64,000 nucleotides of DNA, taken from assembly GCF_014252015.1 (NCBI RefSeq), contig NZ_CP059206.1:124001-188000 (forward strand), read 5' to 3'. The notes beneath the pieces are model-generated. The model worked only from the letters and a program-made list of their open reading frames with translations, was not told where the DNA came from and did not search any database. This stretch comes from Blattabacterium cuenoti. Lineage in GTDB: Bacteria; Bacteroidota; Bacteroidia; Flavobacteriales; Blattabacteriaceae. The position numbers and the translations under genes are program-made. Position 1 is the first letter of the stretch. Every line of letters begins with the position of its first letter. Of the stretch, positions 14,018-26,913 are shown one piece after another.

Positions 14018-14593
14018 ATGGAATGGATAAATTCATTAATTAGTTGTTTTATGATACTTTTTAGCATTATAGACATATTAGGGAATGCGCCCATTATTAT
14101 GGGATTTAAATCAAAGGGGAACATTATAGATACTAAAAAAGTTATAATCACTTCTCTCGTAATATTTTTATCTTTCCTTTTTTTAGGACAACCTATGCTT
14201 CAAATCATTGGAATTGATGTTCATTCTTTTTCTGTAGCTGGATCTGTAGTGTTGTTTTTAATTGGTTTAGAAATGATACTAGGGATAGATCTTCACAAGG
14301 TAACGGAAAATGCTCAAACATCTATAGTTCCAATTGCATTTCCACTTATAGCAGGACCCGGATCTTTAACTACTTTAATTTCATTAAGAGCAACTTATGA
14401 CGTAAATGTTATTCTTTTATCTCTTATATTAAATATGATAGTTGTCTATTTTGTAATAGATAGATGTGATTTTATAGCCGAAAAAATAGGAAATAACGGT
14501 TTGGATATTCTAAAAAAAATATTTGGAATTGTTTTATTAGCTTTTGCAGTTAAAATTTTTGGGGCCAATGCTGGTCAATTGTTTCAACAATGA
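14018..14593 (+). CDS. MarC family integral membrane protein
   Basis: A 191-residue protein of the MarC/UPF0056 family, with about six membrane helices. Typical are the first helix with INSLISCFMILFSIIDILGNAPI, LIGLEMILGI, and the conserved TSIVPIAFPLIAGPGSLTTLI. The frame can be opened 6 bases earlier at a TTG, but ATG 14018 (MEWINSL) is the better start. Despite the name, MarC is not part of multiple-antibiotic resistance; its role is unknown. The 3' end overlaps the convergent rnpA gene by 57 bases. Confidence 0.93.
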   Translation: MEWINSLISCFMILFSIIDILGNAPIIMGFKSKGNIIDTKKVIITSLVIFLSFLFLGQPMLQIIGIDVHSFSVAGSVVLFLIGLEMILGIDLHKVTENAQTSIVPIAFPLIAGPGSLTTLISLRATYDVNVILLSLILNMIVVYFVIDRCDFIAEKIGNNGLDILKKIFGIVLLAFAVKIFGANAGQLFQQ

Positions 14594-14938
14594 CTTTTTT
14601 TTATTGAAAATGCTTATAATAGATTCATTTACATCTTTAAATTTAGGTAAATAAAAGGCTTTATAAATCAAAATTATATAATAATTTTGATTTATAATAT
14701 ATTTATCCAAAATCGATTTATTCAAAATAAAAGAAGCTTTTAATAAACGTTTTATTCTATTTCTGTGAACTGATTTTTTAAAATTTTTTTTTTTTACTAG
14801 AGTTCCAACTAATTTTAGTGATAATTTTTTTTCATAATTCGTTTTAAAAAAAACAGATAAAACAGGATACACTAGCGAATAGTCTCCATTTTTTATTATT
14901 TTTTCAAAAATTTTTTTTTTTTTAAATTGCATTTTCAA
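14537..14938 (-). CDS. rnpA: RNase P protein component
   Basis: Basic protein that helps the RNase P RNA bind pre-tRNA. At 133 residues, the family signature HRNRIKRLLKASF is present, preceded by LVKKKNFKKSV. The N-terminus is very Lys/Phe-rich. The last 18 codons overlap the 3' end of the convergent marC gene, and this tail is beyond the usual family core, so the overlap probably arose by stop-codon loss. It lies 9 bases downstream of fbp on the same strand. Confidence 0.93.
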   Translation of the reverse strand: MKMQFKKKKIFEKIIKNGDYSLVYPVLSVFFKTNYEKKLSLKLVGTLVKKKNFKKSVHRNRIKRLLKASFILNKSILDKYIINQNYYIILIYKAFYLPKFKDVNESIISIFNKKKSLLKQLTSIGPKNFNCKS

Positions 14939-18160: not shown

Positions 18161-18185
18161 ATTTTTTTGTATAATGATTTATAAA

Positions 18186-18598
18186 ATGTATAAAAAAAAC
18201 GATGATATGATATATATGAACATGGCTATTGAACGTTCTAAATTATCTTTTTGTAAAAAAAAAAAGTAGGAACTATTATAGTTAAAAATAATAAAATCAT
18301 ATCTTGTGGATATAACCAGACTCCAAATGGATTTGATAATATATGTGAAGATAATAATGGAGATACCAAATGGTATGTTATACATGCAGAAGCCAATGCA
18401 ATATTAAAAATTGCTTCTTCTTCTTTTTCCTGTAAAGGAGCTTCCATATACACCACTCACTTTCCATGCAAAGAATGCTGTAAACTAATTTATTTATCTA
18501 ATATAAAAAGAGTTGTTTATTTACAACATACAAGAAATAATGAAGAATTAACTTTTTTGAGCAAATTAAAAATAAAAATAGAAAAACTAATCTTATAA
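18186..18598 (+). pseudogene. dCMP deaminase family gene split by an A11 tract (slippage-rescued or decaying)
   Basis: Two abutting reading frames together spell a full zinc deaminase of the dCMP (ComEB-like) family. The first, from ATG 18186, gives MNMAIERSKLSFCKKKK and then meets TAG just after 11 A residues (18255-18265). The second, entered from the GTA at 18266, continues VGTIIVKNNKIISCGYNQTPNGFDN, then HAEANAIL (zinc His and catalytic Glu) and PCKECCK (zinc cysteines), stopping at 18598. Twelve A residues would join them into 137 residues, the normal length. Everything else is intact, so polymerase slippage may restore function, or the base may be a sequencing error. The product would supply dUMP for ThyA (26119-26913). 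Confidence 0.85.
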
Positions 18599-26118: not shown

Positions 26119-26913
26119 TTAAACGGCAACCTCTCCCTTTATATGAGGAAAAGGATTATAATTTTTTAATTGAAAATCTTCAAAACGAAATTGAAAAATG
26201 TTTTTAACAGAAGAATTGATTATTATTTTAGGAAGTGTTCTTGGAGTTCTTTTCATTTGTAGTTTTATTTGTTTAATATGATTATTATAAATATGAGCAT
26301 CACCTATAGTGTGAATGAGTTCTTTTTCTTGAAGATCAAGAACTTGAGCTAACATAGTAAGTAATAAAGCATAAGAAGCAATATTAAATGGTAATCCTAT
26401 AAAAATATCTGCGCTTCTTTGATATAAAAGTAATGATAATTTTTTTTTATATACATAAAATTGAAATAATAAATGGCAAGGAGGTAATGCCATATCTTGA
26501 ATCATTCCTACATTCCAAGAAGATACTATTAAACGTCTAGAATTAGGATTTAATTTGATTTCTCTTATGATATTAACTATTTGATCAATCAAATGGCCAT
26601 CGTAGGTTGGCCATTTTCTCCATTGATATCCATATATAGGACCTAATTCTCCATTTTTATCCGCCCACTTATTCCAAATATAAACTTGGTTTTTTTTTAA
26701 AAACTGAATGTTAGTATCACCTTTCAAAAACCATAATAGTTCATAAATAATAGATCGTATATTTAATTTTTTAGTGGTTAAAAGAGGAAAACCTTTTTCT
26801 AAGTCAAATCTCATTTGATATCCAAACATGCTTATTGTTCCTATCCCAGTACGATCTTTTCTTTTGACTCCTTTTTCTAATATATTTTTTAATAAATTTA
26901 AATATTGTTTCAT
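26119..26913 (-). CDS. thyA: Thymidylate synthase
   Basis: Makes dTMP from dUMP with methylenetetrahydrofolate. 264 residues, the exact E. coli length. Features: [28 protein letters not shown], the catalytic cysteine in [34 protein letters not shown] and HIYNNH. dUMP must come from dCTP/dCMP or dUTP; the dCMP deaminase at 18186-18598 is the likely but frame-broken supplier in this window. Convergent with thrC, divergent from prs. Confidence 0.97.

Follow-up and report, generated by a model that had tools for sequence, protein, structure and literature searches.

The dCMP deaminase gene of Blattabacterium appears to function although its poly(A) tract is one base short through an old deletion that has been tolerated, and it quite probably does so through slippage at that tract. 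The window, meaning the whole stretch of 64,000 nucleotides that was analysed, derives from Blattabacterium genome G000 (629,662 bases, one contig). We regard it as nearly certain that the full-length dCMP deaminase is made and as likely that RNA polymerase slippage, by which A11 would be transcribed as A12, is the main route. Support for this reading, which had been put forward in the initial annotation, came from the relatives, from purifying selection and from the exclusion of sequencing error.

In the window, direct reading of the forward strand gave TGT, eleven A residues (18255–18265) and then GTAGGA. The upstream part of the gene (18186–18269, zero frame) opens at ATG 18186, reads MYKK...LSFCKKKK and ends directly after the four lysines at TAG 18267–18269; the downstream part (18266–18598) reads VGTIIVK...LIL up to the stop codon at 18596–18598. 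The addition of one A to the tract fuses both frames into a protein of 137 residues, exactly as had been proposed from the junction of the two frames. The gene extent initially given (18186–18598) was exact with respect to the break, but the start lies probably further upstream: relatives begin at the equivalent of ATG 18174 (18174–18185, forward strand; MIYKMYKK...), 12 bases before ATG 18186, and share MxYxIxKKxDD there. Because the start used by the relatives matches ATG 18174, the complete enzyme probably comprises 141 residues rather than 137.

Once joined, the protein gives a match to PF00383 with E 1.4e-23, and its best match in the PDB is the dCMP deaminase 4p9c (E 4.9e-29). The HAE zinc/catalytic motif (18383–18391, forward strand) and the PCxxC zinc motif (PCKEC, 18464–18478, forward strand), the PF00383 match and the nearest solved structures all point to a dCMP deaminase, whose catalytic activity is predicted. 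With known dCMP deaminases (PF00383; PDB 4p9c, 2hvv, 1vq2) the protein shares HAE, PCxxC, the GYNxTPxGFDNxCE segment and its length. Unlike these, the Blattabacterium A11 gene requires frame correction for its production, and the joined protein stays under the NCBIfam cut-off for ComEB (79.7 vs 219 bits).

A comparison of the tract in relatives, which had been recommended as a check, was carried out on 49 Blattabacterium genomes including G000, all of which carry the dCMP deaminase gene. The same A11, one base short and at the same codon, was found in 30 of them, G000 among these, a result that favours rescue. Two genomes (G007 and G046) carry A10, nine carry A12 and are in frame, and seven are in frame with a 12-base tract that is interrupted by another base; in the remaining one (G045) a T-A10 tract follows a tandemly duplicated, stop-bearing 5′ end. 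Tract lengths of A9 and A13 were not found among the 49 genomes. On a tree built from 14 flanking proteins with FastTree, parsimony gave A11 as the root state with 10–12 changes (10 when two states were counted), and A11 is present in all members of a deep clade of eight long-branched genomes. The A11/A12 state clusters moderately on this tree, with 10 changes compared to 13.7 for shuffled labels and 16 of 1000 shuffles reaching 10. Recurrence of the identical A11 in 30 of the 49 genomes rules out that the lesion is recent or stems from a local sequencing error, and the break, which parsimony places at the base of the sampled tree, appears to be old rather than young or strain-specific. In two genomes the 5′ end of the gene is duplicated in tandem: in G045 (L156) both 5′ copies end in stops and the 5′ part is damaged, and in G018 (L129) a partial 5′ copy lies upstream of an intact dCMP deaminase gene.

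None of the 49 genomes shows an interruption of the frame 3′ of the tract; HAE and PCxxC are conserved without exception, and the internal indels in this part consist of whole codons. Under a codon model, dN/dS of the downstream part was 0.044 in the deep A11 clade (8 genomes), 0.140 in ten close A11 species, 0.132 in six others and 0.109 over all 30 A11 genomes, compared to 0.100 in the 16 in-frame genomes and to 0.043–0.134 for the intact neighbours thyA, trmH, rnhA and fbp; saturation affects the values of the deepest branches, and the fits to close species (0.13–0.14) much less. For the deep A11 clade, omega = 1 (with kappa fixed in these runs) changed lnL from −1808.1 in the free model to −1968.6 or −1990.4, depending on kappa, a cost of more than 160 log units, and in the close A11 set it cost 91 log units. 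In a neutral simulation of the deep A11 clade with the fitted branch lengths, a lineage acquired 5.5 stops and an average of only 0.06 lineages out of 8 stayed free of them, while no stop was observed in the real sequences. Purifying selection (dN/dS 0.04–0.14 in the broken lineages), which had been named as a second check, was confirmed. Selection downstream of the break is as strong as in species with an intact frame, which indicates that a functional enzyme is made. From the shared break, the open frame and the purifying selection together we infer that the frame is restored during expression.

The proposed route starts from an AT-rich stretch of lysine codons, which is A12 in in-frame relatives and A11 in G000 and 29 other species. 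On A11, RNA polymerase would slip backward and add one A in a share of the transcripts; messages with A12 would then give the whole enzyme, and those with A11 a stub of 27–31 residues ending at TAG. Enough enzyme would be produced for A11 and A12 to be nearly equivalent, and the tract would drift between both. A bias in direction was found, as broken genes are one base short in 30 cases vs 2 for dCMP deaminase and in 21 vs 0 for murD (see below). In Buchnera, transcription indels at homopolymers comprise 151 insertions and 16 deletions (PMC5574713); the one-base-short bias fits polymerase slippage because insertions, which dominate there, mend this direction. Ribosomal −1 frameshifting, however, would produce the same bias, and so would replication that favours deletions. 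Broken tracts are interrupted in 0 of 32 cases and in-frame tracts in 7 of 16 (Fisher p 1.6e-4, uncorrected for relatedness), and this purity leans towards polymerase slippage as weak support, since it is confounded: interrupted tracts mutate less and stay in frame. Likewise, that AAG does not occur as the first codon is weak evidence by itself, because Lys AAG is rare here (6.6%) and about 2 in 32 would be expected at that position. The two A10 genomes (G007 and G046) keep the gene, and −1 ribosomal frameshifting cannot restore A10; their A10 state could be recent or due to assembly errors.

Rescue of poly(A) frameshifts by polymerase slippage is established in Buchnera and Blochmannia, as the initial annotation had stated and as is summarised in PMC5009743, PMC3017870 and PMC4389277 (citing Tamas et al. 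2008 and Wernegreen et al. 2010), with published fractions of corrected transcripts in endosymbionts of 12–50% (PMC5009743). The resemblance is close: all are obligate, AT-rich insect endosymbionts with a one-base indel in a long A run, the gene is otherwise intact and under purifying selection, and the break is common to several species. Of the features expected of slippage-rescued genes, a single homopolymer indel in an otherwise intact gene, purifying selection on the out-of-frame part and conservation across species were found in the dCMP deaminase gene; transcripts of mixed length, some of them corrected, are predicted. Unlike Buchnera and Blochmannia, Blattabacterium belongs to the Bacteroidota, and one break extends over 30 of its 49 species; the symbiosis is dated to more than 200 My (PMC9603385), whereas Blochmannia is about 40 My old (PMC4389277). 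In Citrobacter rodentium, the prematurely interrupted tssM gene is likewise reported to be expressed at full length through transcriptional frameshifting, by polymerase slippage (PMC4256274); that case concerns a different kind of host and a different gene and was demonstrated experimentally. Polymerase slippage, as initially proposed, is the favoured route, but it is not the sole possible one, as −1 ribosomal frameshifting gives the same product.

Ribosomal −1 frameshifting of the dnaX and IS types operates on A AAA AAG (reviewed in PMC5009743). In the dCMP deaminase gene, tRNA-Lys would slip back by one base on this heptamer before the stop, and the ribosome would continue in the downstream frame; we consider this rather unlikely as the means of rescue. 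The heptamer (18260–18266, forward strand) is in the zero frame with TAG immediately after it, which makes it a possible −1 slip site, and the same arrangement, a heptamer of the form X XXY YYZ in the right frame beside a stop, is present in 28 of the 30 A11 genomes. The protein would be identical to the slippage product, and the one-base-short direction fits 30 of 32 broken dCMP deaminase genes and 21 of 21 murD cases. However, such a heptamer arises free from any A run followed by G, and the Blattabacterium tract is much longer than needed: frameshifting would need no more than the G and the six A before it, but the first five positions are unsubstituted in every broken species. The broken alleles are not all correctable by a −1 shift either, as two related lineages carry the A10 mentioned above. 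Dissimilar to the dnaX and IS types is also that no conserved stimulatory structure was found downstream. On average there was no RNA structure 3′ of the tract beyond that of shuffled sequences (mean z −0.40 in A11 and −0.28 in in-frame genomes), although z fell below −2 in 5 of 30 A11 genomes and in 0 of 16 in-frame ones; frameshifting assisted by RNA structure was rejected as the means of rescue in view of this absent average signal.

According to another explanation, the gene is dead or a recent pseudogene, its function abolished by the break and its decay still to set in. The zero-frame product is indeed a short stub, dUTPase can supply dUMP in several genomes, and G045, with its duplicated and stop-bearing 5′ end, may be losing dCMP deaminase. 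On the other hand, the break is common to 30 species across deep branches, dN/dS lies far below 1, the downstream part is free of stops and frame-breaking indels, and the gene has been lost in none of the 49 genomes. These comparisons thus refute inactivation as an explanation for the set at large, and we deem it very improbable.

The same holds for a sequencing or assembly error hiding a true A12, a concern raised initially. Homopolymers of A11 and A12 are a classic site of such errors, and clustering of the A11/A12 state on the tree is no more than moderate; against this, an equal length recurs in 30 assemblies with A13 absent, and comparable runs elsewhere are in frame. In 400 kb of G000, 382 coding A/T runs of at least 9 were counted in 360 intact genes, including 37 of at least 11 that are in frame, and only about four frame breaks were found at such runs; with so few breaks among so many long runs, these are not generally mis-assembled in G000. 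Parallel breaks in murD also argue against an error, as they include A9, an easy length to sequence that a clade of about 12 species shares, and are strongly clustered. Error was accordingly rejected as the cause. An internal start giving a shorter, working C-terminal enzyme is hardly credible and was rejected: the stop sits right at the junction, where termination and re-initiation are possible in principle, but in 25 of the 32 broken genomes, G000 among them, no ATG, GTG or TTG precedes HAE in the downstream frame, and the N-terminal part is itself conserved.

Other frame breaks were sought by scanning 400 kb of G000 against 400 kb of G044. In G000, further breaks at A runs were found in murD (A9), truA (A14) and a CysJ-like flavoprotein (A14), and in G044 rnpA is broken at A10; the names murD, truA and CysJ-like flavoprotein were read from sequence, without comparison to family libraries, and are presumed here. 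The murD gene (G000:C1:266147-267504, outside the window; loci L200-L229 and L260-L278) has its frame broken at one common position in 23 of the 49 genomes, of which 21 were measured directly, all one base short at A9–A14, and two (G002 and G028) were counted from split alignments. Its downstream dN/dS was 0.088 in species with the break, compared to 0.105 in those with an intact frame, and its state follows the tree, with 8 changes compared to a shuffled mean of 16.5 and none of 1000 shuffles as low. A sequencing error cannot account for the A9 break of murD, which about a dozen related species have in common, and murD, a gene that is normally essential, would represent a second case of a shared break. 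The A14 break in truA (G000:C1:22732-23488) needs −1 or +2 and is probably recent, because only G000 and three other, scattered genomes carry it. The CysJ-like flavoprotein (G000:C1 about 381,500, reverse strand) needs +1 at its A14.

The rnpA gene (14537–14938, reverse strand) contains a long A run that is in frame in the window and frame-breaking or stop-bearing in many relatives. In some species one slip rescues the frame on paper. As a clean second case rnpA qualifies only in part, as the in-frame stop of the Blattella symbiont persists after one slip. In that symbiont rnpA is the sole listed pseudogene, with a stop at codon 53 (PMC2768785), and this codon corresponds to the position of the A10 run. 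A split of rnhA into two frames near A10–A13 runs was observed in G047 (L158), G021 (L132) and G030 (L141).

The enzyme had been proposed to be kept because it makes dUMP for ThyA. The thyA gene, which encodes thymidylate synthase, the consumer of dUMP, lies at 26119–26913 on the reverse strand of the window, and ThyA is present at all 49 loci; the argument is weakened by dUTPase, another source of dUMP in several genomes. Because dUTPase likewise makes dUMP, dCMP deaminase need not be the only source, which may help to explain why reduced expression is tolerated. In assemblies that include a small contig (plasmid), dUTPase is located there, whereas it is chromosomal in G002, G016 and G017. 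It was not found in the one-contig G000 assembly, probably because the plasmid was not included. The chromosomal copies (G017:C1:140033, G016:C1:138775, G002:C1:139396) precede the dCMP deaminase gene by about 5 kb, which suggests plasmid integration in these three genomes; the copy in G017 contains one internal TAA. Losses in the neighbourhood of the dCMP deaminase gene (loci L112, L119, L121, L126, L138, L141, L134, L150, L152 and L154) comprise thrB and thrC, both absent in seven or eight genomes. In addition, plsC is absent in G015, G023 and G030, and ureC and ureAB show erosion in G027.

Slippage rescue is a known phenomenon from Buchnera and Blochmannia; new here are the bacteroidote lineage, the very deep and widely shared break, the murD case and the range of naturally occurring tract lengths. 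Within the open-access literature that was searched, no description of slippage rescue in Blattabacterium was found. As annotation tends to call such genes pseudogenes, inferred metabolism becomes distorted. The 49 natural tract variants (A10, A11, A12 and interrupted) provide a ready-made series with which the slippage efficiency required and the time for which a broken frame persists before gene loss become testable. Finally, we tentatively suggest, as a possibility that we hold to be less than probable, that the genus Blattabacterium depends on frame-correcting expression, with several conserved genes (dCMP deaminase, murD and perhaps rnpA) having lacked an intact frame in many or even most species through much of a symbiosis that exceeds 200 My; being one base short would then not be damage but a stable, correctable alternative, which may even serve to keep expression low.
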